DNA of 64,000 nucleotides, taken from Pseudomonas marginalis (GTDB lineage: Bacteria; Pseudomonadota; Gammaproteobacteria; Pseudomonadales; Pseudomonadaceae). The notes below the pieces were generated by a model that made no database searches, was not told the origin of the DNA, and saw nothing but the letters and a program-made list of their open reading frames with translations. The stretch spans positions 12,476-76,475 of the forward strand of contig NZ_LKEG01000043.1 in the NCBI RefSeq assembly GCF_001645105.1, read 5' to 3'. Within the stretch, counting starts at the first letter, position 1, and each line of letters opens with the position of its first letter. The position numbers and the translations under genes are program-made. Shown piece after piece: positions 5,656-22,614 of this stretch.

Positions 5656-5665
5656 AAACATATAA

Positions 5666-7774: not shown

Positions 7775-8590
7775 TCACGCAGCACTCGCCTTGCAGTGAC
7801 TGACGACTGTACTTTTTGACTTGCCTACCGCAATAGCGATCTGGCCGAAGCTGGCTCCCTCGGCACGCATGCGCTCAGCGATGGCCTTCCAGTTGTCACC
7901 CACTTCCAGTGCAGCGACGCGCTGCTCCAGCTCAGCCATGCGCTGCTCTCGCTCCTTGTCGCGCTGCTCCAGCTTGCTGATACGCTGGCGGTCCTTGGTG
8001 CGATCTGCGAGCTCGTATATTTCGGCAACAGCATTGGCCAAACTACCGTTTTGAATGCTTCGATCACGGCGACCATTGCGAACATCATGCATGCCCATCT
8101 CCTTCACATGTGCGTGTTGACTGAGTGCCACCCATGCAGCCTTGATATGTTTGCTGCCCTTGCTGGCCAGCTTGCTGACTTCGGAAGCAGGAACTCCACA
8201 GCCCCGCAACAAATCCGCCGCCCTAGGCCTGCCCTTGTCCTGCATACAGTCATTCACTGCACCCGTCAGAACAGCTAAAATTTGCATAGCGTTGAGGTAA
8301 ACCGTAACGACACCGGCATCCCTGAGCACCTCGCGACGCTTGGCTCTCGCCTCGCGTTCGATCCCTGCAAGCTCCGCCCCCACCCCCGCTGGCTTGGGCT
8401 TGGTAGGCAACCAGCCGTCAAGATCCCCATGCTGCTGTTTGTGCTCCCGTGCTTGTCTGGACAGTTCGCGGAAGTCACGGGTAACGCCGTGAATGGCGTC
8501 CATGTCCTGGATACCGAGATCCTTGGCGGCTCGGCATACCTGGGCGGACTCTTCATCACTCAGGTAAACGTGATCGATGTCAGAATTCAT
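7775..8590 (-). CDS. Hypothetical protein with coiled coil and C-terminal HTH-like segment
   Basis: A 271-residue cytoplasmic protein of unrecognised family. It is rich in charged residues. A likely coiled coil (KLEQRDKEREQRMAELEQR) lies about residues 203-222. The last 40 residues, with the pattern FGQIAIAVGKSKSTVVSHC, resemble a helix-turn-helix. Its start overlaps the stop of the upstream gene as ATGA, making a two-gene leftward operon with 8587-8925. The partner also ends in an HTH-like stretch, so a DNA-binding or regulatory role inside the element is a reasonable inference. No closer function is claimed. Confidence 0.7.
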   Translation of the reverse strand: MNSDIDHVYLSDEESAQVCRAAKDLGIQDMDAIHGVTRDFRELSRQAREHKQQHGDLDGWLPTKPKPAGVGAELAGIEREARAKRREVLRDAGVVTVYLNAMQILAVLTGAVNDCMQDKGRPRAADLLRGCGVPASEVSKLASKGSKHIKAAWVALSQHAHVKEMGMHDVRNGRRDRSIQNGSLANAVAEIYELADRTKDRQRISKLEQRDKEREQRMAELEQRVAALEVGDNWKAIAERMRAEGASFGQIAIAVGKSKSTVVSHCKASAA

Positions 8591-8925
8591 ACTTCTTGCT
8601 CCGCCGAATTCAACGCCGCTACGACCAAAGCCCGAGTAAGGTCCATGTGTCCTGCGATATTGGCGTACGTGCGCCCGGACTCTCGCAACTCAAGGACTTC
8701 TGTGAGCCAATCCTCACCTCGTGCGACACGGACAACCAAATACTGGAGCGCCGCAAGCTCGCGGTCATGCTTGTCCATTCGGGCATTCATGGCGTTGAGC
8801 TCTCGGGCTGTCAGGCTCGCCAAGCGATGCTGGCGTGCGGCTGGTTGAACTACTACTGCTTTGGGCTCTGCTCGGGTAATCGTGGCGCCTGGGGTATCGC
8901 CATGTGTAGTGATAATCGTAGTCAT
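8587..8925 (-). CDS. Small HTH-like hypothetical protein
   Basis: 112 residues, first gene of a two-gene operon. A Thr-rich start is followed by a helical region (LTARELNAMNARMDKHDREL) and a C-terminal part, LRESGRTYANIAGHMDLTRA, that resembles a helix-turn-helix. An AAAGGA ribosome site precedes the ATG. Its tail is similar in style to that of the downstream 271-residue protein. Function unknown; regulation or element maintenance is possible. Confidence 0.65.
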   Translation of the reverse strand: MTTIITTHGDTPGATITRAEPKAVVVQPAARQHRLASLTARELNAMNARMDKHDRELAALQYLVVRVARGEDWLTEVLELRESGRTYANIAGHMDLTRALVVAALNSAEQEV

Positions 8926-9193
8926 GGTGTCTTGTCCTTTGATGGATGACCTGCTGAATTGCAGGCGCGCGAAAGCGCCGGGCTGATTTACGCCCGTGTC
9001 GATTTCATGTTGTTGGGTTCGTAGTGAGGGCGCCGCGTTCGAGCACAGAGGGCTTTGCTAAGCTGTCGACATCCTAGCTTCGTGGTGTACCGGGATGGAG
9101 CTGAAGAACCACGTAGCAAATGCGGAAGCGGGCGGTGTTGAATACGGTGACGGCAAGAACGGGCTTTATGTACCGCACCGGGGGGCGCCGCCC
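8926..9193. other. Intergenic region in element 1
   Basis: It holds the presumed promoter of the two-gene operon to its left and the 3' flank of the HNH gene. No other feature was recognised. Confidence 0.3.
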
Positions 9194-9667
9194 TTAGCTG
9201 ATTCTTGCCTGCTCCACCCGCCATAAAGTTACAGCAGCCAAAGTGCCACGCTTGGATGCCGGGCCGCTGGTTGTCGCAACCTGCGCACGATAATACTTGC
9301 CCACCTTGCTGATGCCGTTGGGCAAACAGAGCTCGTTGGCGCGCCTGCTCCGCGTCCTTGTGCCCTGACTGTAAGCTGTGATCCGTAGGTTCTCGACTCG
9401 GTTGTCATAACCGTCGAGATTGGCGTGACTGATTAGATGCCCGTCCGGGATCTGCCCATATCGCAATGCGTAAAGGATTCGGTGCACATGGCATTGCTGG
9501 CCGTCTACTGAAATCTTCCAGTACCCGGCACCACTGTCTGTACCAGCTGGCGCCCCAGCAGGAATACGCCCCACTCTGATTACCCGGCGCAGGCCCGAAG
9601 GCGACGTGCTGTCGATGATGAACAATTCCCGCAGGCGATCAAGCGAGGGCAGTTCTTTGGCTTTCAT
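9194..9667 (-). CDS. HNH_3-type endonuclease
   Basis: 157 residues from the ATG at 9667, which has an AGGAG site nine bases upstream. The core HVHRILYAL...PDGHLISHANLDG...DNRVENLRI matches the HNH_3 pattern of phage and homing-type endonucleases (His in VHR, H-x-N, then DNR-x-x-NLR). The N-terminus is variable and the C-terminus may carry an AP2-like DNA-contact region (GISKVGKYYRAQV). Such genes are often selfish riders in mobile DNA. Whether it cuts DNA or benefits the element is unknown. Confidence 0.8.
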   Translation of the reverse strand: MKAKELPSLDRLRELFIIDSTSPSGLRRVIRVGRIPAGAPAGTDSGAGYWKISVDGQQCHVHRILYALRYGQIPDGHLISHANLDGYDNRVENLRITAYSQGTRTRSRRANELCLPNGISKVGKYYRAQVATTSGPASKRGTLAAVTLWRVEQARIS

Positions 9668-9685
9668 TTTTGATGCTCCTATCAA

Positions 9686-10083
9686 GGTTCTCCAGGCACA
9701 GCAATGCCCACCAATCCGAAGGGACAGCGATGTGCGAGGGTTAGGTTGGTTGTGGCGGTTGAGGGTCGTAGCGGCTGAGGTTGTTGAATTCGCTGGCGCT
9801 GTCAGTGCTGGCTTGCATTCGCGTCAATCGACGTCAAACGTTTCTCTTGTCTATAGGCGAGCAATTGCTGTCTGTACCACGCAGCACCTGGAATGCAGCC
9901 AAAAACGTTTCTCTCATCCACAGGGCTGCAAAAAAGCTGACGGTGAGACAAGCGCCGTCGATAGCGAGTACACGCACTGCATCCCACGCATGACCGAACA
10001 AGGTAAACATCAGGACTGCTTCCACAGGGAGAGCGGAACAACCATTCAAGCATCACAGGCTCGGGTAGGCGCATCGATCCGAG
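9686..10083. other. 398-base region without a supported gene
   Basis: Open frames on the plus strand lack ribosome sites and family features. A short repeated string AACGTTTCTCT occurs near 9838 and 9904. Nothing else was recognised. Confidence 0.35.
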
Positions 10084-10791
10084 TCAGGGAAACCGTATAC
10101 CCAAGCGCTGAACTAATCGGCTCGCTGCTGTTGGGGTAAACAATGAACCACGGGATGTCTTGTGCCCATGAGCATTGAGCCATGTCGCAAGCGCCTGTAG
10201 TGTCGAGCACTGATCGAACATCGCCGCCTTGATGTGGTTCGCCATGCTGTCCGCATAATCATCCGCCTTCGCCTGCGCACCCAGCACTGCCGCCCCATTG
10301 CCCCGTGAGTGAGCTACGGCACGCCCCTGTGAGCGACGTTCGACCTTGGCCCTAGCCATCACATCCCCCGAATCAGCGCGGGCTTTGAGCGCCTTCAGAG
10401 CGTCTTTGGTGCGGCGTGAAATAAACTCTCGCTCCTGCTCTGCCAAGGCGGCGTAAATGTGCAACTGAAACTTGTCAGCACTCGGCATAGTGGCGACCTT
10501 GAAGTCCACGATTTTCATCAAACCAGCGATGTCTGCCACGTCACGACTGAGACGATCCAGCTTTGCCACTACCAGCGTCGCCCCCTGCGCCTTGCACGCC
10601 GCCAGAGCCGTCCTGCACTGCTCTCGACGCTCAGGAGATACCGTGCCGGACTCGCGATCTTCAAACTCTCCAATGATCTCCCAGCCGTTCTGATCGGCAG
10701 CCATGCGAATGTACTCCCGCTGGGCATCCAGCCCGAGGCCAGACTCTCCTTGCTTGACGGTGGAGACGCGGTAATAAGCTATGACGTTCAC
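10084..10791 (-). CDS. Serine recombinase (resolvase/invertase family)
   Basis: 235 residues if started at the GTG at 10791, which has a GAGG site eight bases upstream; a longer upstream frame lacks such support. The N-terminal resolvase domain is complete: AYYRVSTVKQGESGLGLDAQ with nucleophile Ser10, the VVAKLDRLSRD block with active-site Arg residues, and ALAEQEREFISRRTKDAL at the E-helix. The C-terminus is a short HTH-bearing tail (STLQALATWLNAHG...TAASRLVQRLG). It may resolve, invert or transpose DNA. No pair of crossover sites was identified nearby. Confidence 0.88.
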   Translation of the reverse strand: MNVIAYYRVSTVKQGESGLGLDAQREYIRMAADQNGWEIIGEFEDRESGTVSPERREQCRTALAACKAQGATLVVAKLDRLSRDVADIAGLMKIVDFKVATMPSADKFQLHIYAALAEQEREFISRRTKDALKALKARADSGDVMARAKVERRSQGRAVAHSRGNGAAVLGAQAKADDYADSMANHIKAAMFDQCSTLQALATWLNAHGHKTSRGSLFTPTAASRLVQRLGIRFP

Positions 10792-11255
10792 GGTGGACCT
10801 CAAGGATTTATCAAACCGTAGACACCATATATCAAACCTCTGATGACCATCAAGAGATTGACATGACAATATTAGAGCATTTAACCCTTAGGCAAGAGCC
10901 ACTAGAGCGGCTAGGGGGGAGTTGTAGCAGCTACTCAGCTTCGAGTCCGCTCTTGTATAAGCAAAACATATTTAGGACGCGATTGAGAGCGAAGGACGCT
11001 CCCGATGGCGACTGGCAGTAAAAGGTTTGCGTGCTGTAAGATCCCTACCGTCTTGTAGTGAGCCGATCATCTGGACGGACTGCGGCGCAGATTGCCCTTT
11101 GGTTAAAGAAGGCGTCCACCTCAAACATTGCGCAAGCGATGGATCTACAGTACAGACTAGTTTTAGCACAAAGCTTAAACATTTACGGCAAGCTCTAACC
11201 TTTCTGAAATAGCAAGTCGAGCCGATCTAAAAGCACCATTAAAAGGAAATTGTAA
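10792..11255. other. 464-base region upstream of the caspase-like gene
   Basis: No gene was recognised. The right half becomes AT-rich and ends with an AAGGAAATT ribosome site before the ATG at 11256. It should contain the promoters of the recombinase (leftward) and the caspase-like gene (rightward), but no clear -35/-10 pair was found. Confidence 0.35.
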
Positions 11256-12761
11256 ATGGGGTTGAACGTAGCTATTCTTTTGGGCGTGACCGATTACATT
11301 GATGCTCACAATCAACTTCCCGCGTGCAAGAATGACATTGAAGTCATGGCCGAAGTTTTGGAGGCCACGAGGAAATTCAACGACATTTTTGTAGTTCCGT
11401 CGGAAAATGGTCAAGCTCTCAAGGCTTTATTAGCAGAGCACATAGCAAAGTTTAAAGGGCAGGAAATTGACGAATTATTCTTCTATTTCACCGGCCATGG
11501 CGACTTCAGAAATGACGAATTTCGCTTTTTGTTAAGAGACTACTCTATAGCGCGCCCCGCACAAACCTCACTCAGCAATGACGAGCTAGACAACTTCTTA
11601 AGAAGCCTATCCCCGAAAGTCGTCATTAAGGTTGTCGATGCCTGCCACTCCGGAATGCCTTACATCAAGGATGGAGGTAGTTTCGCCGAATACATGAAAG
11701 CTGCAACGGAAGCAACTTTTGATAAGTGCTATTTTCTATTCAGCTCGCAGAGCGACCAGGCTTCTTGGGCAAGTAGAAATATTAGCGACTTCACCAAAAT
11801 TCTTGCGGAGTCGGTAGCTGAATCCGCCGTCGACTCTATTAGGTATAAAGACATTCTGGATTATATCTCGGACGCATTCATTGCTGATCCAAAGCAGCGC
11901 CCGATGTTCGTAGTCCAAGGCGACTTCACAGAGGTTTTCGGCGTATTTGCTAAACACGATAGAGAGTCGCTGAAAGCTCGACTTGGAGCCGTAAATAAAG
12001 GCAGTGTAGTAAAGGATTCCGGACGAACAAAAAGCTTAGCCGAGTTAATCAAAGAAGCGTCTAAAGAATACGTCACGATGGAGACAGCACTAAAAGCCTT
12101 GAGCGATCTGAAGTCCAACCTGGAAAATGTTTCTGTGCCGAACAGCTCATCAGAAATATTTGAAATGACCACAAACTTCTACGATGAATTTAAAGTACTC
12201 CCCAATAAAAGTACTCTCGGAAAGTGGCTCACCAAAAGTGAAGGCGAGTATTTCGCCTCACCCGAATATGACACCGAAACATACGAGGTCGACTCACCTA
12301 TGTCTCGGGCGTTCGGAGGCATAATGGGAGCTAATCATGAGAAAATAACCAGAACCCGCAAAGTTATATCGGGCGTTCAAACAAGCATGGCGGACCTTCC
12401 ATTCTTAGCCTGCAGAATCATTTTCACCCCTAAATATCCAAACATTACTCAATATAGTGCATGGCTAACATATTTCATTTCAAAAAAAGACATACAGCTT
12501 TTTTACTGCTTTGTTGATTATAAAGAAATCAACTGGGGTAAATACAGGATGTCCGAAATATCAGAGTGGAGCACCTTTAACACATCCCTAACAACTTTCG
12601 ATGGAGGCAAAACAGTTTCAGAGACATTTCTTAACGCTTTTGAAAACTTTGTCTCAACCAATCTAGCAGTTAAACTCGGAGTAAATCTAGAGGCACCAAA
12701 ACCTGATGAAGCACCAAAGCCAATCACAAAACCCAAAACCACGCAAGCCAAACCGCAGTAG
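11256..12761 (+). CDS. Caspase-like (peptidase C14) protein, cargo of element 1
   Basis: A 501-residue predicted cysteine protease. Residues 1-240 have the caspase/metacaspase fold pattern: the opening strand NVAILLGVTDY, the catalytic His81 in FYFTGHGD, and the catalytic Cys130 in VVDACHSG. Residues from about 250 to 480 form a second domain that I do not recognise, and a Pro/Lys-rich tail follows (APKPITKPKTT). There is no signal peptide or clear membrane segment. The gene is visibly richer in A+T than its neighbours, consistent with recent transfer. It is the last gene of element 1, next to attR, where cargo often sits. Prokaryotic caspase-like proteases are known effectors in several anti-phage systems, so a defence role is a fair inference but unproven. 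Confidence 0.88.
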   Translation: MGLNVAILLGVTDYIDAHNQLPACKNDIEVMAEVLEATRKFNDIFVVPSENGQALKALLAEHIAKFKGQEIDELFFYFTGHGDFRNDEFRFLLRDYSIARPAQTSLSNDELDNFLRSLSPKVVIKVVDACHSGMPYIKDGGSFAEYMKAATEATFDKCYFLFSSQSDQASWASRNISDFTKILAESVAESAVDSIRYKDILDYISDAFIADPKQRPMFVVQGDFTEVFGVFAKHDRESLKARLGAVNKGSVVKDSGRTKSLAELIKEASKEYVTMETALKALSDLKSNLENVSVPNSSSEIFEMTTNFYDEFKVLPNKSTLGKWLTKSEGEYFASPEYDTETYEVDSPMSRAFGGIMGANHEKITRTRKVISGVQTSMADLPFLACRIIFTPKYPNITQYSAWLTYFISKKDIQLFYCFVDYKEINWGKYRMSEISEWSTFNTSLTTFDGGKTVSETFLNAFENFVSTNLAVKLGVNLEAPKPDEAPKPITKPKTTQAKPQ

Positions 12762-12854
12762 CAACGTCGCAAAGGATCGCTAATGTAGCCACCTCTGTTA
12801 GCAATCCACGTGATATTTTGGACAGCGATTAGCGTCGACTGCCACCGCGTGACT

Positions 12855-12874
12855 GGTACACACATCTGGTACAC
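12855..12874 (+). repeat. Paired GGTACAC repeats, likely integrase arm sites (right)
   Basis: GGTACAC at 12855-12861 and 12868-12874, same sequence, orientation and 13-base spacing as the pair at 5731-5750. Together they bracket element 1 just inside its att sites. Confidence 0.6.
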
Positions 12875-12935
12875 TGATTAAGTTGGTCGGGGCTGTTTCC
12901 CCACCAAAACAGGGGCTTGGCAAGGTGGGCAGCGA

Positions 12936-12966
12936 GTCGGCGGTTCGATTCCGTCTCTGGGCACCA
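12936..12966 (+). repeat. att junction between element 1 and element 2
   Basis: A 31-bp exact copy of the tRNA-Phe 3' end (5625-5655), including CCA. It serves as attR of element 1 and attL of element 2. The upstream bases do not complete a tRNA, so this is not a functional tRNA gene. Confidence 0.92.
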
Positions 12967-13011
12967 CCTTTCGTTTCCAGGTGATGCCAAGCACACCCGG
13001 AAGCACACAAG

Positions 13012-13036
13012 AAGCCCGCCTCGTGCGGGCTTTTTG
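13012..13036 (+). terminator. Intrinsic terminator near the left end of element 2
   Basis: The stem AAGCCCGC (13012-13019)/GCGGGCTT (13025-13032) runs into a short T-run. Its position after the att core parallels the terminators at 5666 and 22624. Confidence 0.75.
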
Positions 13037-13081
13037 CTTTCTATGGTTCCCCACCGTTCCCTTGTAAGCCCAAACGGATGT

Positions 13082-13127
13082 GAGTAGATTCGTGAGTAGA
13101 TCCAGTTCTGTCTAAAAATCTACTCAC
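13082..13127 (+). repeat. GAGTAGAT repeats, likely integrase arm sites of element 2 (left)
   Basis: GAGTAGAT occurs at 13082-13089 and 13094-13101 (12-base period), with an inverted copy ATCTACTCAC at 13118-13127. The direct pair recurs with the same period at 22521-22540 near the right end of element 2. Confidence 0.6.
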
Positions 13128-13175
13128 ACCACGCCGGCAGAACGCCCGCTTGGTGCGGCCTGCAAGGGGGCTGCT

Positions 13176-14388
13176 TTGCTACTGTCAGATACCACCATCC
13201 GTACCGCCAAGCCCAAGGACAAGCTTTATCGCCTGACCGATGCCAACGGTCTATGCCTTGAAGTCACCCCTGCGGGATCAAAGCTCTGGCGCTAGCGCTA
13301 TCGCTTCAACGGCAACGCTAAGATGCTGGCCCTCGGCACGTACCCCGCTGTAACTCTGCTCAAAGCTCGCCAGATGCGCGATGAGAGCCGTCAGATGCTT
13401 ATTGATGGCATTGACCCAGGCGAACAGAAGTAAAGCCGCCAAGCAAGCGCAGAAGGTCGAGGGGATCACATTCGAAACACTTGCACGTGAGTGGTTCGCC
13501 TATAACGCTCCTCGTTGGGCAGAAAGCACCACCTACAAAGCCAAGCTTTATCTGGAGAACGATCTGATCCCCGGTATTGGGTCAAGGGCTCTGAAATCCA
13601 TTACCCGACCGGAATTGGTAGAGCTTGTTCGAAAGGTTGAGGCTAGAGGCACGCTGAATGCCGCCGGCAAGATTCGCCAGTGGCTTCACCAGATATTTCG
13701 CTATGGCCTGGCCAAGGGCGTCGTTGATACGAACCCTTCTACCGATCTAAGTGTGGTTGCAGCGCCATCCAAAGCAGCTCGGCACCATCCACACGTGCCT
13801 TTTGCTGAGTTGCCCGAGCTCTTGAGTAAATGCGAAGCCGCGAACGTCCATACCCTCACCCGCCATGCGATCAAACTTTTGGTGCTGACAGCCGTTCATC
13901 CAGGTGAACTGCGTCAAGCACCATGGACTGAGTTCGACCTGGACAACGCCACTTGGACAATCCCGAAAGAACGGATGAAGGCCCGCCGCCCTCACATCGT
14001 CCCTCTGCCCGACCAAGCGGTAGCTATCCTGCTTCAACTCCAAGAGATCACAGGACGTTATTCACTGGTATTCGCTGGCGCCAATCCCGAAAGACCCATG
14101 AGCGAAAACACAGTCAACAAGGCTTTGCGCCAGATGGACTACGAAGGGCGACAGACCGGCCACGGATTCCGCCACTTGCTCAGCACCGAATTGAACGGGC
14201 GAGGCTACAACAAGGACTGGATCGAACGGCAACTCGCTCACGGTGACACCGATGAGATCCGCGGGACTTACAACCACGCAGCTTACGTTCCACAACGCAG
14301 GGAAATGATGCAGGCCTGGGCCGATTCTATCGACGCACTGTGTGCAGGCGCGAACGTGGTAAGTATTCAGCGACGAGGTGTTAAATGA
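13176..14388 (+). pseudogene. P4-type tyrosine integrase of element 2, disrupted
   Basis: Remnant of a phage P4/DUF4102-type integrase of about 400 residues. The N-terminal arm domain starts near a TTG at 13176 after an AAGGGGG site and reads DTTIRTAKPKDKLYRLTDANG. A TAG at 13293-13295 interrupts it where a Trp-Arg-x-Arg motif continues (KLWR-stop-RYRF). The frame resumes, meets TAA at 13431-13433, and continues only after a one-base shift (SKAAKQAQKVEGITFE...). The catalytic half from about 13440 is intact, with HPGELRQAPW, HGFRHLLST and a final Tyr in IRGTYNHAAY. Two independent lesions make it almost certainly inactive unless the 3' part is expressed alone. Confidence 0.88.
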
Positions 14389-14516
14389 CTCACCAAGCCA
14401 AAAAATTCAACACCTGGGCACTACGCGGCGATACCGACGCAGACTGGTACGAGTCTTACGCTACCAACACCGAACCGCCGACTAGGATGCTCCGCATTGG
14501 CATCAGAAGACCGTGA
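14385..14516 (+). CDS. Possible small protein coupled to the integrase remnant
   Basis: A 43-codon frame (MTHQAKKFNTWALRGDTDAD...) whose ATG overlaps the integrase stop as ATGA. It has no recognised family. The coupling is the only support, and it may itself be shortened by decay. Confidence 0.3.
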   Translation: MTHQAKKFNTWALRGDTDADWYESYATNTEPPTRMLRIGIRRP

Positions 14517-14581
14517 AGCCTGATAGCCGGCCACAGATGCGTGCGCCTGCTCCAACGATCTTCCACGGCACGTGGCGAACA

Positions 14582-14614
14582 ACAAAGCTTGCTTTGTGTA
14601 GTGAGTACACAAGC
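14582..14614 (+). other. Predicted oriT (MobV type)
   Basis: Two overlapping inverted repeats share the string GCTTTGT: ACAAAGC-TT-GCTTTGT (14582-14597) and GCTTTGTGTA-GTGAG-TACACAAGC (14591-14614). The second carries TAGTG at its loop, as in MobV/Pre-family origins, where the nick falls after TAGTG. It lies about 80 bases before the MobV-type relaxase remnant, the usual position. Confidence 0.65.
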
Positions 14615-14692
14615 TGAAGGCTTGGGGTTACTTGCGCTGATCTTTGCTCCACCCGCAGGCTGAAGATGAACACCGTCAGCACGGGGGCCGGT

Positions 14693-15642
14693 ATGCCATA
14701 CGCAATACTAAGAACAAAAAAGCTCAAAGCGATCACTGGGGTACTGGGATCGGGGCGGCACACATTCCGAGAGATGCCAACACCGAACTCCGATAGCACC
14801 CCCAGCATGCATATGGCTGGTGCAACAAGCGCCGTCGAGCTGGGTCGCGCAGTCTTGGCCAGGCTTCCGCAAAAGCGACGGAAGGGAGCGGTGATCTGCA
14901 TCGAATATTTGATTACAGCAAGCCCTGAGGCGTTTGCTAGACATGGCGGGGCGATGCCTGACACCGGCGGTTACTTTGATCGAGCCTTGGCATGGCTCAA
15001 GGCGCGTCATGGGTCAGCAAACATCGTGTGCGCCGAGGTGCACCTGGACGAGAGAACCCCACACCTCTTGCTTACGTGACACCCCTAACACGTGACGGCC
15101 GCCTGTCTGCGCGCGACTTCCTCGGAGGCCCAGCCAAGCTGCGCAAGATGCAAACCGACTTTCATCATTGGTGTGGCAAGCCTTTCGGACTGTCTCGTGG
15201 CGTTGAGGGGGCCAAGGCACGACACCAGAAGGTTCCCCGGTACTACCAGGCACTTGCTACCCCCGAGCGGATCATTACCCGAACAGACTTAGCCGCTGCT
15301 GTCGTAGGCATACACACGCAGAGCTATGCCACGCTGCTAGCTCGTGCCCAAGCTTCGGCTACACAGTTCAAACTCCAAAGCGCATCTGAGGAGGCTTTGC
15401 AAGATCGGCATGCAGCACCGCAGAGCCAGAGAATTCAGCTTGAGCGCTTTCAGCTGGAGCTTGAGGATCGGGAGATAGTGCTAGAAAAAGGACTTGATCA
15501 GCTCGAAAAGGTTAATCATGAGTTAGAGATGGCCCGGCTTACTGCAAATCAAGAGAAAGAACGCGCCGACAGGCTAGCGAAGAAGCTCACCCATATACTT
15601 CGACGCGTATCCAACGGCAACACCCCGCCATTGCCCCACTGA
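14693..15642 (+). pseudogene. MobV/Pre-family relaxase, frameshifted
   Basis: A mobilisation protein that would nick oriT. The first frame, from ATG 14693, gives MPYAILRTKKLKAITGVLGS, the typical Mob_Pre start, and runs to the metal-site block HLDERTPH before stopping at 15077-15079. The next frame continues without a gap in family sequence (LAYVTPLTRDGRLSARDFLGG) and ends in a coiled coil (QLELEDREIVLEKGLDQLEK). A single indel near 15060 therefore splits the gene just after the conserved His/Glu motif. The element has probably lost self-encoded mobilisation. Confidence 0.85.
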
Positions 15643-15728
15643 GACGCGTACTCTCAAACAACGAAGACCCGGCACACCCACCCTTGGGATATGGAGGAAG
15701 GCCAGAGCAGCAGGGCAACAACCTTCAT

Positions 15729-16136
15729 CTAAACAAGACAAGCCCTTACGGCCAAATCTTGAGCTTCAGATATATCCAGGCTCTGAAGTGAGCAGTCTTG
15801 GATAAGGCGGGTGAACTGATCGTCAAGCGCACATATGTGCTTAACGCGCCCAGTAAATCGTTTGTTCAGCATTTCTACCGCATTGAGATCATAGAACTCA
15901 TCCAGGCAAACCCAAGTCGGCTTTTTTAGATAGCCATCGGTCATCGGAATGAAGAAATTATGGAAACGGTCTGCAGGCTGACAGCCGAACGTCACACCAC
16001 GACCATGCTGCTGCGAAGTGGTCTTGGCAACCACAATGACCGAGTCAGCACTACCGAGCACTACAAACAGCTTTTCTCCAGTTTCCCCGTCGTGGAAGTG
16101 AAATTGCTCATCGAAATAGACTGAGCCAGGAGTCAT
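15729..16136 (-). CDS. Probable toxin partner of a Panacea antitoxin
   Basis: 135 residues from the ATG at 16136, which overlaps the upstream stop as ATGA; a GTG at 16145 is an alternative. The N-terminal part (PGSVYFDEQFHF...EKLFVVLGSADSVIVVAKTTSQ) resembles the small SH3-like barrel of PemK/MazF-type ribonucleases, but the match is by eye only. The tight coupling behind a Panacea-domain gene is the standard antitoxin-toxin order. If correct, it inhibits growth when its antitoxin is lost. Confidence 0.65.
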   Translation of the reverse strand: MTPGSVYFDEQFHFHDGETGEKLFVVLGSADSVIVVAKTTSQQHGRGVTFGCQPADRFHNFFIPMTDGYLKKPTWVCLDEFYDLNAVEMLNKRFTGRVKHICALDDQFTRLIQDCSLQSLDISEAQDLAVRACLV

Positions 16137-16690
16137 CGTAGACACTCCATCAGTTCCTTCCGATCCCTCGCAACACGCATCAATGCATCAATTTCCTGAG
16201 ATCTGATAGCGAGTTCATAAGGAATTCGTTGCTGCCTCGCTCCCTGCTGATTGAACACCTTATCCCAAGGCATATTCTCTAAATGCGTAGCCTCGATCAT
16301 GTCATCAGCGAGGGTACTCCGGTATTCTTCAGCAAGTCGACGCATTAGGCCAAGCTCACGCTTGGTAAAGTTCTTCGAACTGAATTCGATCCTCGGCTCA
16401 ATATTCAGCATTACCTGCTGACCATTTCTGATGGCCTGATTACTAAATCTGATGGATGCAGCCATATCTGGCTGCGGAAGCTCGATCTCCGCCATCAAGT
16501 CGACGGGAACCGGCCCCTTTGGCCACGCCGAGTAGTCAGAGCCTGTCACGCTACGTCCAGTTTCTTTGAAGTGCTCGAAATCAAGGAAGTAGAGAAGCTT
16601 GAACAGTTTGATTTTGTGACAGTGCTGGGTGTTGCTGACGAAGAAGATGATCGCTTGAATCAGCTTCTCTCGCTCGTGAGTAATTAGCAT
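16133..16690 (-). CDS. Panacea-domain (DUF4065) antitoxin-like protein
   Basis: 185 residues from the ATG at 16690, which has AGGAG upstream; the longer open frame lacks this. The sequence shows the Panacea/SocA-like pattern: KLFKLLYFLDFEHFKETGRSVTG near the N-terminus, then YSAWPKGPVP, and a helical tail. Panacea proteins act as the neutralising partner of many unrelated toxins. The downstream gene is translationally coupled. Such pairs stabilise mobile elements and sometimes act against phages. Confidence 0.82.
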   Translation of the reverse strand: MLITHEREKLIQAIIFFVSNTQHCHKIKLFKLLYFLDFEHFKETGRSVTGSDYSAWPKGPVPVDLMAEIELPQPDMAASIRFSNQAIRNGQQVMLNIEPRIEFSSKNFTKRELGLMRRLAEEYRSTLADDMIEATHLENMPWDKVFNQQGARQQRIPYELAIRSQEIDALMRVARDRKELMECLR

Positions 16691-17051
16691 AAACCGCTCC
16701 TGCTGAAAGCCTTTCAAGCATAGCATGTGGTTAAGAGTCAACCCTAATACAAGGCTGGCAACATGTCATTTTGATTTCATAGCCAAGCTAACGGATGAGA
16801 GCAACGGCGGGCAGGTTTGAGTTCAACACAATCAATGCGATTTTTGGCGGTTATCGCTAAAAGGTATGACTTCCCCACATGACCCACCAAGTGACAGCAC
16901 CAGCTATTGGCGACAATCACATTCTTGTGATTTCGGGTGTTAGCACACTGGCAAATACGATGAAATTCATTCGAATTAAGACAGTCGAGAGGCACAGATT
17001 GATGGTCAATCGACTACCCCCCTCTCGCGCGCGCGCGTTTGTGGGTGGTTG
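16691..17051. other. 361-base region between divergent TA and HTH genes
   Basis: No supported gene; a 72-codon leftward frame lacks a ribosome site. It should contain the promoters for the Panacea pair and the HTH gene. A CG dinucleotide run (CGCGCGCGCG) lies near 17028-17037. Confidence 0.35.
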
Positions 17052-17315
17052 ATGAGCCGTCGGGCGCCGCCGGCGCGCTCAATTGATTGGTTTCAAGTGA
17101 TCAACGAAATATCACGCGCAGGCCTTCCGATGCAGGCGATTGCAGAGTCAATCGGGGTGGCCCGAACCACGTTGATCGGCTGGAAACAGGGAGCTGAACC
17201 TAGGCACTCTGAAGGTGATCGCTTGCTAACGTTCTGGACGAATGTGACTGGCCACGACAGAGCTGCAGTGCCCATGGTCTCGATAAGCGACTGGTGGGCT
17301 TATCACGCAAAATAG
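17052..17315 (+). CDS. HTH-type regulator (Cro/XRE-like), 87 aa
   Basis: A small DNA-binding protein. The core (INEISRAGLPMQAIAESIGVARTTLIGWKQG) is a clear helix-turn-helix with the recognition helix around VARTTLIGWK. A preceding TTG at 17049 could also serve as start. It lies convergent to the AlpA-like gene and is a likely regulator of the element. Confidence 0.75.
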   Translation: MSRRAPPARSIDWFQVINEISRAGLPMQAIAESIGVARTTLIGWKQGAEPRHSEGDRLLTFWTNVTGHDRAAVPMVSISDWWAYHAK

Positions 17316-17351
17316 GTACTCGCCCTGGTGATAAAAGCCGATAACGCCAAT

Positions 17352-17376
17352 GTCACGCAGCGTCACACATAGTCAC
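17352..17376 (+). repeat. Three GTCAC repeats at 10-base spacing
   Basis: GTCAC begins at 17352, 17362 and 17372, exactly one helical turn apart, so all copies face the same side of the DNA. It lies between the HTH and AlpA-like genes and may be a binding site for one of them. No direct evidence. Confidence 0.4.
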
Positions 17377-17400
17377 AGGGCAATGGCTGCTCACATTTCC

Positions 17401-17613
17401 TCACTGGTTGCGGGCAGCCTTCTTGTCTGCGATCCACTGTTCGACCTCGACCGGATCGAAGCGGCATCGAGCGCCACGTGTTTCACTGGTCTTGATAGGT
17501 TCAGGGAATGTCTTGTCGCGCACGCGTAGCTTGTTCAGTCCGGACACACTTTGCATGCCGAGCATCTTGATTACTTCTGCGTTGCCCACCAAGGCGGTGC
17601 GTTTTGGCTCCAC
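17401..17613 (-). CDS. AlpA-family regulator / excisionase-like protein
   Basis: 70 residues from a GTG at 17613 with a GAGGA site seven bases upstream. The pattern LVGNAEVIKMLGMQSVSGLNKLRVRDKTFPEPIKT...RCRFDPVEVEQWI is the winged-helix DNA-binding fold of AlpA and MerR-like excisionases. AlpA proteins activate integrase genes or assist excision, so it probably served the broken integrase of this element. Confidence 0.85.
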   Translation of the reverse strand: MEPKRTALVGNAEVIKMLGMQSVSGLNKLRVRDKTFPEPIKTSETRGARCRFDPVEVEQWIADKKAARNQ

Positions 17614-17910
17614 GGGTATTTCCTCGCTTTAATCGGCCTCTACATTAGACGCCACCTTTGTCCCATCGCATGCTTTCCGACCCTGATCGGATATTTTTCC
17701 GGCCCTTAGCAATCATCCACTGCAAGAGCCGTTCGGCACTCCGCGAAGCGACTCTAGGAGCCAGCGCTACACTGAGATCTTGGTGCGGCCTCGACCCCAC
17801 GACCCTAACCGGCGCTCACTGCAGAGTAAGATCGAGGCCACGCCATCCTACCAAGTCTCTAGCATCGCGATCAGAGCCAACACACCATGCTCTTCATCTG
17901 GCGCGCCCCA

Positions 17911-18279
17911 ATGACTGACCCATATGGGCAACCTCGAATCCTTAGAGCCAAGCACGCACCGTCCTATCTGGGAATGTGCCGGGCGGAGTTCGACAAGACG
18001 GTTCGCCCACACGTCAGCGAATTCCCCATCGGCAAACAGGGAGTCGGGTTTGACCGACTAGAGTTGGACGCATGGGCAGACGCTTACATTGCGGCTCACT
18101 CGATTGATAAGTGCACACCATCTGAGAATGCTCTGTCGTCTGACTCGCGGGCGGCAGTGAAGAAACCACAGGTCACCTCCCGTAAATCAAACCCCGCAGG
18201 AGCACGAGCCCCTCATGCGAAATCGAAAGCGGAATTCCAGAGAGTCCTCGACCTCGTGAGGGGGAAAAAGAGGCCATGA
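17911..18279 (+). CDS. AlpA/HTH-like hypothetical protein
   Basis: 122 residues from the ATG at 17911 (an earlier in-frame ATG at 17887 is possible). The first 65 residues (ILRAKHAPSYLGMCRAEFDKTVRPHVSEFPIGKQGVGFDRLELDAWADAYI) follow the AlpA/MerR winged-helix layout. The remainder is basic and probably disordered, ending in RGKKRP. A DNA-binding role is likely; the target is unknown. Confidence 0.65.
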   Translation: MTDPYGQPRILRAKHAPSYLGMCRAEFDKTVRPHVSEFPIGKQGVGFDRLELDAWADAYIAAHSIDKCTPSENALSSDSRAAVKKPQVTSRKSNPAGARAPHAKSKAEFQRVLDLVRGKKRP

Positions 18280-18354
18280 TTAGCCGACCCATGCCAAAAC
18301 GTGTTCCACAAAGGTAAGCTGCGGCCACAGGCACTGACGCCAAGGAATATGGCC

Positions 18355-18873
18355 ATGACTAACGAAGTAATCTTTTACACCCAGCTCGCTTCAATCGTCT
18401 CCTTCATCATCGCCCTTTTCACAGTTTATAGCGTCCTGGTACAGGCAAAGGAGGCATCGATCCAGGTGCTCAAAGAACGTCTGATCAATAAGGACGAGCA
18501 GATTGCGGCGCTAAAAGCTCAGACGCCCGACTCACTGGTGTCCATCCTCAATGATCGGATCAAGATCACTCAAGATGAAATTAGCCGCCTCGAAGCAGAC
18601 AGGGACGTACATCGCAGCGAGATCGAGCTGAAGAAGGGAGAACTCCAAGGCATTCAGGACAAGCTGTCAGCCCTATCCGAACTGATCCGTAAAAGCGATT
18701 TAGTGTGCCCCAAATGTGGGGATCCGTTGGCCGGCCGTCAATCACATACGATTTATGGTGGTGTGAACGGTGAGCAGGAAGCCGATATCGAGATACTCAA
18801 CTATGAATGCGGCTACTCAATCGCAGACGATGGGAAAGAGCTGGGCCGCTGCGCACATCACGTTGACGGATAA
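18355..18873 (+). CDS. Membrane-anchored coiled-coil protein with zinc-ribbon tail
   Basis: 172 residues; the ATG at 18355 is eight bases from an AAGGA, better spaced than the ATG at 18349. One N-terminal membrane segment (ASIVSFIIALFTVYSVLVQA) is followed by a long coiled coil (about residues 30-115). The C-terminal part carries CPKCGDP and later Cys residues (NYECGYS, GRCAHH), which fit a zinc ribbon. The family is not recognised. It is convergent with the cyclase-like gene. A sensor or membrane-effector role is conceivable but unsupported. Confidence 0.65.
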   Translation: MTNEVIFYTQLASIVSFIIALFTVYSVLVQAKEASIQVLKERLINKDEQIAALKAQTPDSLVSILNDRIKITQDEISRLEADRDVHRSEIELKKGELQGIQDKLSALSELIRKSDLVCPKCGDPLAGRQSHTIYGGVNGEQEADIEILNYECGYSIADDGKELGRCAHHVDG

Positions 18874-18946
18874 TTAACACCGTCGCGACCACAACCGACA
18901 TCACCAACAACAAACCTTATTGCTGCAAACTGTGGAAGAAACGCTG

Positions 18947-19678
18947 CTAGCCGCCAAGTATTTTTTTGTGCTGCTGCCTTACTCGAGCGTACAGCCAATT
19001 CACCTGTTTCTGAGGTTTTTCACCCTCTGCCTTCCTTAACAAATCCTCGAGACGCAACAGCAAATTAGTATAGATTTCGACTGCCTTGTTCGTTGGAATC
19101 CCCATGAACGTACCATCTGGAATCGACTCCTTCCTTAGATAATCTGACTTGATGAACTCCAGCGTGTAAGGGTCGACGTACACTCCGAGGGCGTCAGCGC
19201 CCACCATACCCTCAACGAGTTCGACGTCTTTCAGCCCCAGGATGCTTTTGTCCAAGATAACTCGAGGGTAGAACCCATTGGACTCTAGGCTATGAGCGAC
19301 GTTGAGCGCTGGGCCAAAAACAATATCGTTTTCGTGATGGATATCTCCGACGGTGACACCTGCTCGTAGCAGAAATCCCGATAAGGCTGCCCCTACAAAC
19401 ACGTTGGACAGACCATAAATCACTTGAGAAAGCTCCTCCTGCTTAAATGGAATACTGATCACGCAGCAGTCGGAGAAAGAAGTGATCCGCGCCTCTCCAG
19501 CCCCCACAGCCTGCAAGACTGTCGAGCTTTTCAGCAGTCTAGGTATCAGCGAGAGATTCCCGACTTTTACGGGATCGCTGCCTGCATCTGTGACAAGTGT
19601 TTTCCAGCCCATGACGTCAAAAAAAACGACGAGCCTCTCGGAGTAAGTGATCGGGCTGTTGAAGTCTGTGCTATCCAT
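18947..19678 (-). CDS. Nucleotidyl-cyclase-like protein
   Basis: 243 residues, cytoplasmic. The layout is that of a class III cyclase catalytic domain: the first strand LVVFFDVMGWK with Asp21, a second acidic site FSDCCVIS with Asp70 (the two expected metal ligands), then LLRAGVTVGD and VFGPALNVAHSLES, matching the G-x-x-hN-x-A-x-R/S-L-E region. The rest is helical with no second domain, so it would act as a homodimer. Proteins of this general look include the pyrimidine cyclases of Pycsar anti-phage systems, but no TIR or cyclic-nucleotide-binding effector is visible beside it. Substrate unknown. Confidence 0.65.
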   Translation of the reverse strand: MDSTDFNSPITYSERLVVFFDVMGWKTLVTDAGSDPVKVGNLSLIPRLLKSSTVLQAVGAGEARITSFSDCCVISIPFKQEELSQVIYGLSNVFVGAALSGFLLRAGVTVGDIHHENDIVFGPALNVAHSLESNGFYPRVILDKSILGLKDVELVEGMVGADALGVYVDPYTLEFIKSDYLRKESIPDGTFMGIPTNKAVEIYTNLLLRLEDLLRKAEGEKPQKQVNWLYARVRQQHKKILGG

Positions 19679-19834
19679 TAGTGTTCTTCCTTGGCTCGAA
19701 AGCTAGTTTGGGTGCAAGCGAGTGATCCTATCAGCAACCCACAATCAGCAAGAACGTGCTTTGAGCAGCCTCTAGGCGCTACCTAACGCGTTCGCAGGTC
19801 GAGATTTTTTCAGGCAGCGTAGGATTATTGCTCG

Positions 19835-20518
19835 ATGCAGAATTACACAGAGTCTTTTAAATTGGCGATGGCGCGAACCGATGATTTAACCGGTCGAATG
19901 TCAAACTACCCGCTTGAGCTCGATACGAGCATGACGATAAACCAGGTCGCGGTTGTGGCAGCTATCGCCAAGGATTTCGCAGAGTTTTTACCTCACACCG
20001 ACGTCCTGCCGGGCAAGTGCTTCCGAGTTGCGCGTGAACTTTCCTATGTTTTGTTCCAACTCGGCATCAGGCACACCGTGACAGTTGGAGACGTTGCACT
20101 GATTGATGGTCTATATGCGGGCGTGGCGCCAGATAAGCTGCTGAGCGATGTCTCGATGGGGTATCAACTTGACTTTATGGATGGCCGCCCAGTGGGACGG
20201 CCAATTGATGCTCACGCCTGGATAACGCTGGAGAACGGCTGTGTCATCGACGCAACGGTGCTCGCGTCGCAGCATCGTAAAAGCTTGAATCCATCGGAGT
20301 TACTGTCTTTTCAAGACGCCATCTATTACACCGGCAAGCCGAATACCCCAGTGATGCACCATATACCGATGCTAACCGGGCTGGTTTATCACCAGAAAGT
20401 TTTGACAGCTCCCATGGATGGAGACTTCCAGAACTACTGTCAGTGGTATGAAGATTACCCAAGGCTGATGGGCCGACTAGATCTGTTGAGACTGGTGCCC
20501 GCCCTTGCACCCACGTGA
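19835..20518 (+). CDS. Papain/transglutaminase-like fold protein
   Basis: 227 residues. A Cys-His-Asp order typical of transglutaminase-like and N-acetyltransferase-like papain folds is visible: Cys62 in LPGKCFRVAREL, His127 in DAHAWITLENG and Asp139 in CVIDAT. There is no signal peptide. The gene is divergent from the cyclase-like gene, with a 156-base gap. It could be a protease, a deamidase or another acyl-transfer enzyme. The family is not assigned with confidence. Confidence 0.6.
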   Translation: MQNYTESFKLAMARTDDLTGRMSNYPLELDTSMTINQVAVVAAIAKDFAEFLPHTDVLPGKCFRVARELSYVLFQLGIRHTVTVGDVALIDGLYAGVAPDKLLSDVSMGYQLDFMDGRPVGRPIDAHAWITLENGCVIDATVLASQHRKSLNPSELLSFQDAIYYTGKPNTPVMHHIPMLTGLVYHQKVLTAPMDGDFQNYCQWYEDYPRLMGRLDLLRLVPALAPT

Positions 20519-20664
20519 GCCCCGCCCATCTATCAAGACTCTTGCTTTCCACTCAGGCATAAAACCGCCCTGATCACCTCAAGGGTCAATCATGGCCGAG
20601 TGGACACCCGAGAAGCTCAGAGTTTTTTAAAGTGCTAGGCCTCCTCGAAACACGGAGAGCCACA

Positions 20665-20889
20665 ATGACGGATATCAAACTGATAGCCAGCCTGTTCGAC
20701 CGCCTCAATCAAAACCAGCTCGCCCTGGGCGCCGCAGTGGAGGAGCTTTCCAATTGGGTCGAGCAGCGCGGATCGGCGGACATTGCCGACAACATGCGCG
20801 GCGCGCTGGAAACGCTCGACGAAAACCTGGTGTTCATTCGCCAAGGCATTGCTGAGCTGACCGTCGCCGGCAGCCTGGGGCAGTCGTGA
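20665..20889 (+). CDS. Small hypothetical protein, 74 aa
   Basis: Starts at ATG 20665 after CGGAGAG. It is an acidic, helical protein (LIASLFDRLNQNQLALGAAVEELS...) with no membrane segment. GC content and codon use resemble core Pseudomonas genes more than the AT-rich cargo. Function unknown. Confidence 0.55.
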   Translation: MTDIKLIASLFDRLNQNQLALGAAVEELSNWVEQRGSADIADNMRGALETLDENLVFIRQGIAELTVAGSLGQS

Positions 20890-21508
20890 CGCAGGCTAGG
20901 ATTCTGGACAGGCTCTGGACGGCTGGAGAGGCCGCAGCTCATCCAAATCGGCCCGCGGGCCAAAGCCAGCAAAGGCTGGCGGCAGATCGGACATGCGGCC
21001 TGGTAGCTACCTCGTCCAGAAACAGGGGCAAATCGGGGCAGTCACTTCCGGGACAACTGGCTCAGCGTCGACCCAGGCAAACGCGGCCATAATCCTTGAC
21101 CAGCGTTGACGAAATTTTTGACAGGTCTTGACGGATTTATCCGGCGCCGTCAGCGGTTAGCGCACTGAAATCCACGCAGTTCAAGGCTTTGCGAGCATTC
21201 GGGCTGCCTGACCAGCACCAGCCCCGTCTAAAATTCGGGAGGTGGCCGTCAAGGTGGGTGCTCGATCAATATCCTGGCGCGATGGAGTGGTGAAATACCG
21301 GGCCAGAAAAATGCTTAGCGCGCCTGGCAATACTAGACAGGCTCTAGACAGATTTTAGCCGACTGACCACGGGCAAATTGTCCGCAGCCCAAGCAATGCC
21401 CAGCTTCCAGCGCTAACGGTGGCGTGCTGGTGCTTGAGGCTCGCAAGCATTTTCCGGGGCTTTCAGCGACCTGCCTGCAAATCTTAGCGGGCTTATTTGA
21501 AGCCTTGA
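20890..21508. repeat. 619-base noncoding region with phased TTGAC repeats
   Basis: No supported gene. TTGAC begins at 21096, 21106, 21118 and 21128, spacing 10, 12 and 10 bases, so all copies lie near one face of the helix. Related strings GACAGGCTCTGGAC (near 20908) and GACAGGCTCTAGAC (near 21339) occur on either side. The array could be a protein-binding region or a vestigial replication origin, but no replication initiator gene was found. Confidence 0.4.
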
Positions 21509-22156
21509 TCAGCGTTTGGGTTGATCTCGCCTCGCCACAGCCTCAACAGCTTTTTCCGGCATCTGTTGATAAAAAGCAGCAATCTGTTTGGGCTGGCTGA
21601 TCCGATTTTCCACAATAAAATTTATTAACCCAAAGAGAGGCACTACAAGCGACGGTGTATTGGCAACATCGAGCTCAAGGATGTGAAGCGCGTTGTTACC
21701 AACAATCCTGGTGCTATCCAATGCCTGCTGAACACCTACAGGAAGCCCAGCAACTACCAGTTTCTTAATCTGGTCATTGATCCTGTCCTCCGTGCCGACC
21801 AATTGATTACAGAGCTTTTCCAAACAAAGCCTTAGCAGGGCAGCAGAGGAGCGAGGCGATACGGAAAACACCTCTCTCGCCTCATTAAAGTCAGCTTTGC
21901 AGCTTTCGGGCGTCTCCTCATGAGCATGAGGTGCGGTCACGATCAGAGGGAAGATCATTTTACCTTCTGAATACTGACCAATTATGTTTGGCCGCCCAGT
22001 ACCCAACCAGAAGCTTGAATCACCGCATGCGCATGTGGCTGCCATGAGAACGTTGAACGGAGGGTTTTTCGATCCTAGCCACTCCATGTGTGAGTTCGCT
22101 TGACAATGTGGGCAGGTGAAAATGCTTTCGTTGAATTTGGGCTGGATATATTTCAA
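21509..22156 (-). CDS. DUF4145-domain protein
   Basis: 215 residues from a TTG at 22156, which has AAGGA seven bases upstream; the longer frame has no such site. An N-terminal zinc-ribbon-like part (FTCPHCQANSHMEW...CACGDS) precedes the DUF4145 helical domain (SPRSSAALLRLCLEKLCNQLVG, then LDSTRIVGNNALH). DUF4145 proteins are common in mobile elements and accompany restriction or defence genes, but their role is unknown. It is the last gene before the right end of element 2. Confidence 0.78.
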   Translation of the reverse strand: MKYIQPKFNESIFTCPHCQANSHMEWLGSKNPPFNVLMAATCACGDSSFWLGTGRPNIIGQYSEGKMIFPLIVTAPHAHEETPESCKADFNEAREVFSVSPRSSAALLRLCLEKLCNQLVGTEDRINDQIKKLVVAGLPVGVQQALDSTRIVGNNALHILELDVANTPSLVVPLFGLINFIVENRISQPKQIAAFYQQMPEKAVEAVARRDQPKR

Positions 22157-22592
22157 GGTGCAATCCTTGCGAAAAAAGAACAACTTTAAGCCAAATGAAT
22201 CAAGTCGGCAGCAGCATCTAGTAAGCGAGATCAAGGTAGGGCAAAAAAACCGCTCTAGGATCGCCGGCGTGGCCTGCGAAAATTAACCCCACGAATGACC
22301 ACTACCCTGATCCGGGATGGTGCCGGCGCGGGGAATGGCAAGAACGCCTCAGCGTCGTGGAAGTGCCACACGACGGCGGCGCCCCAACCACCGCAAAAGC
22401 GAGGAGCCAACCAATGAGGCGATTCAAAAGGGCTTGCCACTCGTCGGGCATCGACAGAGGAAATCAGCACGGTTTCGGTCGCCGCCGGCAGTTTCAAAAC
22501 AGAGCTGTATTTGAAAAAGAGAGTAGATTTGTGAGTAGATATATATATCCACTGATGACAAACCCTTTTAAAACTTGACCTACAGCTAGCTA
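22157..22592. other. Right-end noncoding region of element 2
   Basis: No supported gene. It contains the right-hand GAGTAGAT pair (22521-22540) and an alternating AT run at 22539-22547. Confidence 0.4.
22521..22540 (+). repeat. GAGTAGAT repeats, likely integrase arm sites of element 2 (right)
   Basis: GAGTAGAT at 22521-22528 and 22533-22540, the same 12-base period and orientation as at 13082-13101. Confidence 0.6.
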
Positions 22593-22614
22593 TTCGATTC
22601 CGTCTCTGGCACCA
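22593..22614 (+). repeat. attR of element 2, 22 bases with one deletion
   Basis: TTCGATTCCGTCTCTGG-CACCA, matching the last 23 bases of tRNA-Phe except for one missing G. It marks the right limit of element 2. Confidence 0.82.

Follow-up and report, generated by a model that had tools for sequence, protein, structure and literature searches.

Among the closest described systems is the small plasmid pMV158, whose relaxase, MobM, possesses a Mob_Pre domain with an HLDExTPH motif and whose TAGTGNG nick motif, with a hairpin 8 nt upstream of it, lies just ahead of mob. One report distinguishes the IR1 hairpin, 8 nt upstream of the nick, from IR2, which straddles the nick, and describes footprinting in which IR3 forms on naked supercoiled DNA and IR1 forms upon MobM binding, with extrusion of the IR2 hairpin going undetected (PMC5863519). 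The Pseudomonas islands considered here share the domain, the motif and this arrangement. They differ from the plasmid in being chromosomal and in having TAGTGAG/TA at the nick site in place of TAGTGTG/TTA (the slash marking the nick), and in the window copy the gene is broken.

A second group of comparators comprises the MobV IMEs. According to a 2017 review, no relaxase-only IME had at that time been described in Proteobacteria (PMC5704250). Like IMESag-rpsI, Tn5520 and Tn4451, the islands combine an integrase with their own MobV and oriT, and no T4SS genes were noticed in them; unlike these canonical elements, most of the Pseudomonas islands also encode phage ejection or tape-measure proteins.

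Phage satellites, including the P4-like, PICI, cf-PICI and PLE elements, encode a tyrosine integrase, mostly reside in tRNA genes, and carry a primase and defence cargo. The islands resemble them in their integrase, in sitting mostly at tRNA genes, in primase and defence cargo and in having virion genes in common with a plausible helper, and no capsid or terminase was found in the islands in the tests made. Unlike satellites, they encode a relaxase and an oriT, and their borrowed virion genes specify DNA-ejection or tape-measure proteins. The I55-type tmRNA islands of Pseudomonas, which are moved by a jumbo phage, likewise possess a tyrosine integrase, AlpA, defence cargo, direct repeats and an excised circle or concatemer in Pseudomonas hosts; however, no recognised autonomous-transfer genes are reported for them in the abstract, and the word "relaxase" is absent from the main text (PMC12595487). 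Finally, the Purivirus UFJF_PfDIW6 encodes gp15 and gp16, homologous to the ejection module of the islands, and has in common with them a small gene beside the phage integrase (82-86% DNA identity), yet it is a 42-kb phage with terminase, portal, head, tail and integrase genes and no relaxase among its 58 annotated features. Among the matches listed in a search of titles and abstract openings in the open-licence literature, no paper dealt with a relaxase-encoding phage satellite or with MobV islands bearing ejection genes.

The locus analysed here lies in a stretch of 64,000 nt of Pseudomonas marginalis DNA, referred to in its entirety as the window. The oriT and mobV gene that it contains are best read, with a probability of roughly 0.8, as the transfer end of a decayed integrative mobilisable island (12967-22609) situated at tRNA-Phe behind a second island. 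Two islands in tandem, A (5656-12966) and B (12967-22609), are recognised because the end of the tRNA-Phe gene recurs at 12936-12966 and 22593-22609:

5580-5655, forward strand: tRNA-Phe (gaa), found by ARAGORN; integration target and start of the tandem array
12936-12966, forward strand: 31-bp copy of the tRNA-Phe 3' end, an exact repeat of 5625-5655; common boundary of islands A (its right end) and B (its left end)
22593-22609, forward strand: 17-bp distal att copy of island B, a repeat of the tRNA-Phe end

After the distal att copy of island B, at 22644, there is also a 13-bp copy of the terminator-like stretch that follows tRNA-Phe. Island A, at the same tRNA-Phe, contains a DUF6538 integrase, an HNH protein, a serine recombinase and a caspase-domain protein, the last with the EACC1-associated type as its best NCBIfam match, below the cut-off; it is likely a defence island.

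In island B, the relaxase gene is represented by two overlapping open reading frames. ORF 14666-15079 matches positions 2-134 of the 196 in the Pfam profile Mob_Pre (PF01076; E 5.9e-14), and ORF 14992-15642, in a different frame, matches positions 138-195 (E 4.8e-8), so that the MobV of the window lacks almost nothing except the frame. Both halves also match the NCBIfam model MobV (NF041497), at 67.9 and 37.6 bits, each below the model's cut-off of 100 bits. The two pieces are as follows:

14693-15079, forward strand: N-terminal piece of the MobV relaxase, from the start MPYAILRTKK past the frame break to a stop (PF01076, NF041497)
15073-15642, forward strand: C-terminal piece of the MobV relaxase, in the other frame, 189 codons without a stop (PF01076, NF041497)

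The N-terminal piece is 98.4% identical to its counterpart in CHM02 (126 aa), and the C-terminal piece is 47-66% identical to six open homologues (172-189 aa). In all ten distinct relatives that have both halves (L003, L005, L006, L007, L008 (= L004), L009, L010, L011, L012 and L013), the halves are spaced in frame, and the window is one base short; reading through six of these ten revealed open MobV frames, that of L003 up to its contig end. The break falls between HLDERTPHL and AYVTPL, directly past motif III (HLDERTPH), which bears out the sequence-only reading of a relaxase split by one indel just past its conserved motif. With this one-base shortfall, the window copy has no uninterrupted MobV reading frame, and comparison of the sequences supports reading it as a MobV pseudogene. 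A programmed frameshift could be discounted by reasoning from the relatives, which need none.

The frame break is known from one draft assembly of 61 contigs, and the absence of a stop in the 189 codons that follow it means either that the decay is recent or that the break may be erroneous. A mistake in assembly or sequencing that conceals a functional MobV would agree with these features and with the dN/dS of 0.064 obtained for the N half between the window and L041, yet the adjoining integrase is itself damaged at two points, with a large deletion scar alongside; an error is therefore considered unlikely. The independent damage to the neighbouring integrase argues instead for real decay of MobV. 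Between islands, the dN/dS of MobV is 0.14-0.20 (four pairs), and a profile of the island MobVs matches the MobM structure 4lvi (E 7.7e-16). As a separate observation, the oriT and catalytic half of MobV (window 14500-15220) have approximately 95% DNA identity to CHM02, and the rest of the gene approximately 60%; this drop in identity may be taken as a sign of allele shuffling inside mobV.

A MobV-type oriT is located at 14582-14606, about 95 nt upstream of the window MobV gene, with TAGTG at 14599-14603 and an adjoining hairpin; the motif TAGTGAGTA also starts at 14599. Its components, with hairpin energies from DNA folding parameters, are these:

14582-14597, forward strand: IR1-like oriT hairpin, ACAAAG-CTTG-CTTTGT, -3.4 kcal/mol
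14591-14614, forward strand: IR2-like hairpin straddling the nick motif, the one picked out by the sequence-only reading, -5.8 kcal/mol (stem of 4 bp and 5 bp parted by one bulge, with a loop of 5 nt)
14599-14605, forward strand: nick motif TAGTGAG, the nick being predicted at the junction of G 14605 and T 14606

The nick position is predicted from the G/T nick of pMV158, which lies 8 nt past IR1, and the hairpin at 14582-14597 ends 8 nt ahead of the expected G/T nick at 14605/14606. The initial suggestion that the TAGTG hairpin at 14591-14614 resembles MobV nick sites was right as to the presence of hairpin and motif in a MobV oriT layout, but that hairpin corresponds to IR2; by analogy with pMV158, the functional oriT hairpin is probably that at 14582-14597, the IR1 counterpart.

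Comparison with other loci sets these elements in context. TAGTGAGTA is found upstream of MobV in 13 of the 16 MobV loci read and is absent at the loci of G315 (L063), G014 (L006) and G069 (L007), all of which have a distant MobV; a nick motif universal in Pseudomonas MobV is thus ruled out. A perfect 6-bp stem, in four different sequences, stands directly ahead of the motif in 11 of the 13 motif-bearing oriTs (all except those of G270 (L029) and the truncated G249 (L030)), and such a stem occurs in 0.4% of random 30-mers, counts that are descriptive, with rows unweighted for kinship and a random control of even base composition. A 6-bp stem preserved in four sequences would be the pattern expected of a selected structure. 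The 15-mer GTGTAGTGAGTACAC occurs in 7 of 398 Pseudomonas genomes and, in six of these seven, precedes a MobV match by no more than about 110 nt; as the pattern read backwards also occurs in 4 of 398 genomes, its presence alone is near chance, and its position is not. The copy in the seventh genome, G245, was tried as an orphan oriT and dismissed as chance, for it lies inside a 399-aa chromosomal ORF, a transporter by eye. A second TAGTGAGTA in L041, at 12142 and away from MobV, was also taken as chance. Given the MobV oriT layout, including the 8-nt spacing, and the near-identity to oriTs beside intact MobV genes, nicking of the window oriT by a related relaxase is plausible.

Upstream of the oriT, the left part of island B is damaged:

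13176-14388, forward strand: tyrosine integrase pseudogene of island B, with Pfam and NCBIfam matches on its open part (13381-14388)
14385-14462, forward strand: stub of the post-int gene, its first ~26 codons, fused to pre-oriT DNA and recognised by homology to L044

The integrase, presumably of "P4-type", has an in-frame stop at 13293-13295 and a frame change between about 13381 and 13431, leaving no uninterrupted gene in the window; its homologues in G139 (92.6% identical) and G167 (84.4% identical over the C part) are open. Because of these two lesions, excision of island B by its own integrase is not expected. The stub at 14385-14462 matches L044:12231-12305 with 64% identity across 25 aa (E 2e-9, the local database being small) and G270 with 45% across 20 aa, with no similar match in G139. 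Homology to G139 resumes at window 14459, and the points flanking this junction are approximately 17.6 kb apart in G139. By these comparisons, 14385-14462 is the scar of an internal deletion, and island B is a deletion derivative; G139 is not its exact parent, since the stub after int lacks a counterpart there. Island B retains its att copies and oriT along with small regulators and defence cargo, and the replication and ejection genes are absent. The window copy has lost about 17.6 kb between the post-int gene and the oriT, its integrase has a stop and a frame change, and its MobV has a one-base break. Island B is now most likely a remnant that carries defence genes and no longer moves, with an oriT that looks intact.

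The remainder of the island, downstream of mobV, consists of cargo and small genes:

15729-16145, reverse strand: 138-aa ORF beside the Panacea gene, possibly its toxin partner; no Pfam match and no PADLOC match
16133-16741, reverse strand: SocA/Panacea-domain antitoxin-like gene, cargo (PF13274, E 1.3e-16)
17049-17315, forward strand: small repressor-like gene, 97.7% identical to L025:13386-13649
17401-17613, reverse strand: 70-aa AlpA/excisionase-like ORF, named by eye, 95.7% identical in G139; no Pfam match
17887-18279 and 18301-18873, forward strand: two right-arm genes of island B, 83% and 66% identical in G139
18947-19678, reverse strand: cargo gene in common with the metagenomic island contig L042 (84.4% DNA identity over 18943-19707)
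21509-22234, reverse strand: cargo gene for a DUF4145 protein, anti-phage type PD-T7-4 (PADLOC PD-T7-4, E 4.2e-65; PF13643)

The Panacea/SocA-type antitoxin-like gene and its 138-aa neighbour (15729-16741) form a candidate toxin-antitoxin pair. Homologues of the repressor-like gene are present in 6 of 12 carriers, the window included, and its counterpart at L025:13386-13649 matches the repressor family phrog_16553. The DNA of the AlpA-like ORF is 82.6% identical to positions 25843-26049 of the Purivirus phage PfDIW6, beside the phage integrase, a likeness that could reflect gene exchange between island and helper type. Cargo found elsewhere in the family includes an RmrA-type gene in L041 and a RelA/SpoT-type gene downstream of MobV in G139; together, the PD-T7-4-, Panacea-, RmrA- and RelA/SpoT-type genes are consistent with defence-carrying hitchhikers.

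Relatives of the window island are uncommon. Of 398 Pseudomonas genomes, 11 contain MobV of the window's profile at E 1e-20 or better, the window's own genome among them. Close relatives are full-length in G105, G139, G151, G167 and G270 and truncated in G249; those of G014, G069, G236 (on a small contig) and G315 are more distant and were left out of the island-family counts, and weak Mob_Pre matches in G073, G115, G207 and G211 were likewise left out of the island counts. IMG/VR provided four additional MobV contigs. Eight of the 12 MobV carriers compared also have a homologous integrase (the window, G105, G139, G151, G167, G249, G270 and L044). Repeats of the tRNA end bound four islands: 18-nt repeats flank those of 25.7 kb in G139 and 16.6 kb in G167, both at tRNA-Phe, and 16-nt repeats flank those of about 19.7 kb in G151, at tRNA-Thr, and about 25.4 kb in G270, at tRNA-Leu. 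In G249, the integrase adjoins tRNA-Met, but a search for repeats of at least 14 nt found none, and in G105 the stretch read to the right contained no tRNA. Besides an integrase and oriT-MobV, the bounded relatives (16.6-25.7 kb) have replication genes; across the carriers, such genes include Toprim primase homologues in five of the 12, DUF927 homologues in three of the 12, and a DnaB-like helicase in G105.

Decay is also evident in some of these relatives. The MobV of G249 lacks its first ~37 residues, with the nick motif kept alongside. CHM02 (L003:3096-6664) is a further deletion derivative in which the end of the giant-protein gene directly follows the left island end; its oriT is present, its MobV is open to the contig end, and it has no integrase match. 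In addition, sequence past the right att of G167 (L026:12318-12419) and G139 (L025:16256-16345) is 89% and 79% identical, respectively, to window 12940-13042, and this left-end-like sequence may be a trace of further tandem insertions.

An excised form is seen in the 24,454-bp metagenomic contig L044 (G398), where the right island end is joined to the left via the att core, with no tRNA-Phe, at an attP junction located at 10689-10711. Across the two ends of the contig, the giant-protein gene continues in frame apart from 8 absent residues. Such an att-core junction without the tRNA, together with ends meeting in frame, identifies L044 as an excised circle or concatemer; IMG/VR lists L044-type contigs as viral by its own criteria, which is not proof of packaging. 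The relatives therefore possess an integrase, flanking att repeats (in G139, G167, G151 and G270) and an excised form.

A phage DNA-ejection or tape-measure gene is carried by 10 of the 12 MobV carriers compared. It is of the podophage ejection class in six (G139, G270, L041, L042, L044 and CHM02, the last with the C-terminal part only), and an SLT protein of lytic-tail/internal-virion type is found in G167 (by PHROG scan) and G151 (by homology). In two others, the podophage ejection module is replaced:

L028:12265-15126, in G105: transglycosylase/tape-measure-like protein, 953 aa
L043:5628-7742: tape-measure protein, 704 aa

No ejection or tape-measure gene is present in the window, and none was seen in G249, whose ORFs lay outside the profile scan. 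The podophage module consists of a phrog_418 internal virion protein, an SLT transglycosylase and an LPD22 giant protein (2037 aa). No capsid, portal or terminase family appeared among 30 island proteins scanned against PHROGs (28 of them non-MobV, representing part of the ORFs), and tblastn of the 17 head, tail and ejection proteins gp01-gp17 of PfDIW6 against the 12 carriers, G398 and G315, a test that detects relatives of PfDIW6 proteins only, returned matches for gp15 and gp16 only. The Purivirus terminase, portal and major head protein thus have no match in the islands, which on this count are not Purivirus prophages. Because ejection or tape-measure genes occur where no capsid, portal or terminase was found, those carriers probably use or modify helper particles.

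The giant protein of the islands is 82-83% identical to gp16 of UFJF_PfDIW6, and the CHM02 fragment 79%. A 400-residue piece of it was found in 5 of 398 genomes, namely the MobV islands of G139 and G270 and three Purivirus-like prophages, in G236, G238 and G313, that have portal, head and tail genes, with a terminase match in G313 only. It could be supposed that the MobV islands are ordinary defective prophages of Purivirus type that lost their head genes and beside which a plasmid mobV-oriT landed: the ejection module is phage-derived, its resemblance to PfDIW6 gp16 holding where most of the gene is present, and the window, CHM02 and G249 copies are visibly decayed. Several observations make this improbable. 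The 2037-aa protein is open, with a dN/dS of 0.046-0.071 between islands (three pairs), which indicates strong purifying selection and hence retention of the ejection gene by the islands. A nine-sequence tree places the island versions on one side of a 100/100 branch and the phage versions on the other. Islands at two different tRNA genes, tRNA-Phe and tRNA-Leu, share the module, and one relative is seen in excised form. Finally, the stretches read of the G236, G238 and G313 prophages contain no match to MobV or to the island primase and helicase, the MobV of G236 being on a separate small contig.

A resident Purivirus helper in the island hosts was rejected, as the major-head gene went unmatched in all seven host genomes, the window's own included, a search that had no positive control when run; in a later local comparison the gene does show in G236, G238 and G313. 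A helper would therefore need to arrive by infection. In a packaging-site search, phage and island DNA outside the common genes had only short matches of 22-28 nt, together with stretches of 54-76 bp at ~76% in G270 and G105 and, in G249, a weak match to the end of the integrase. The idea that MobV is common among phages was rejected, with matches in 4 of 50,697 phage records, all below 60% identity, and neither the window MobV N-terminal piece nor the G139 MobV has a PHROG match.

In less damaged relatives, the tyrosine integrase would excise the island, in keeping with the excised form, which would then probably be replicated by the Toprim and DUF927 or other helicase proteins. MobV is predicted to nick the oriT between G and T of TAGTGAG/TA, 8 nt past the short hairpin, and, judging from its family, to pilot the strand through a helper's T4SS; the ejection proteins would probably serve delivery by using or modifying helper-phage particles. 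The T4SS families PF02534 and PF03135 have no match in the genome of the window, and PF03135 has a match in one of six relatives' genomes and none in the other five, so the conjugation helper is mostly unseen. This scarcity, along with the Pfam family name "Plasmid recombination enzyme", would suit an island MobV that starts rolling-circle replication or site-specific recombination (the "Pre" role) in place of conjugation. Such a role has a low probability, considering that several islands have replication genes of their own and that a relaxase function is established for MobM (PMC5863519).

The sequence-only reading had further proposed that the window element may still be mobilisable in trans by a related relaxase. 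The nicking step remains plausible; against the rest stand the broken integrase, the loss of about 17.6 kb, and the lack of any second Mob_Pre gene or T4SS family match in a search of its own genome. With integrase and relaxase broken and replication and ejection genes absent, mobilisation in trans is a possibility and not a prediction, feasible in principle and unlikely now. For it to happen, the element would have to be supplied with a relaxase and a T4SS and, beyond these, rely on a foreign integrase or on Hfr-like transfer. A stronger version, in which island B is a true oriT-only hitchhiker whose relaxase loss was tolerated or favoured because the MobV of related islands acts in trans, could draw on an oriT unchanged relative to its near relatives among broken coding genes, on G249, which also keeps the motif beside a truncated MobV, and on oriT-only elements moved by a foreign relaxase, which are known (PMC11389934). 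It is nonetheless quite unlikely: the integrase is broken too, its genome has no second Mob_Pre gene and no T4SS family match, the G249 stem is already imperfect, no relaxase-free island copy of GTGTAGTGAGTACAC was found among the 398 genomes, and recent decay accounts for the intact oriT equally well.

What the window itself shows, a good oriT with a broken relaxase next to it, is modest, and its value is as a pointer to its relatives. These islands are candidates for relaxase-encoding IMEs in Proteobacteria, a category that was empty in the 2017 review (PMC5704250). The less damaged among them join the signatures of conjugation hitchhikers and phage satellites, routes usually treated as separate classes, and suggest an element that may travel by both conjugation and phage. 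It is tempting, although the odds are put at somewhat less than even, to propose a dual-route class of capsid-less islands that would present MobV and oriT to T4SSs and place their own ejection or tape-measure proteins, including LPD22, in helper particles. If true, the dual-route island would be a satellite that swaps the injection machinery rather than the capsid. The islands also raise the question of why a 2037-residue virion injection protein is under strong purifying selection in an element in which no capsid gene was found. If both routes work, one island would be able to spread from cell to cell with either kind of helper, depending on which one it meets, and take anti-phage defence genes along.
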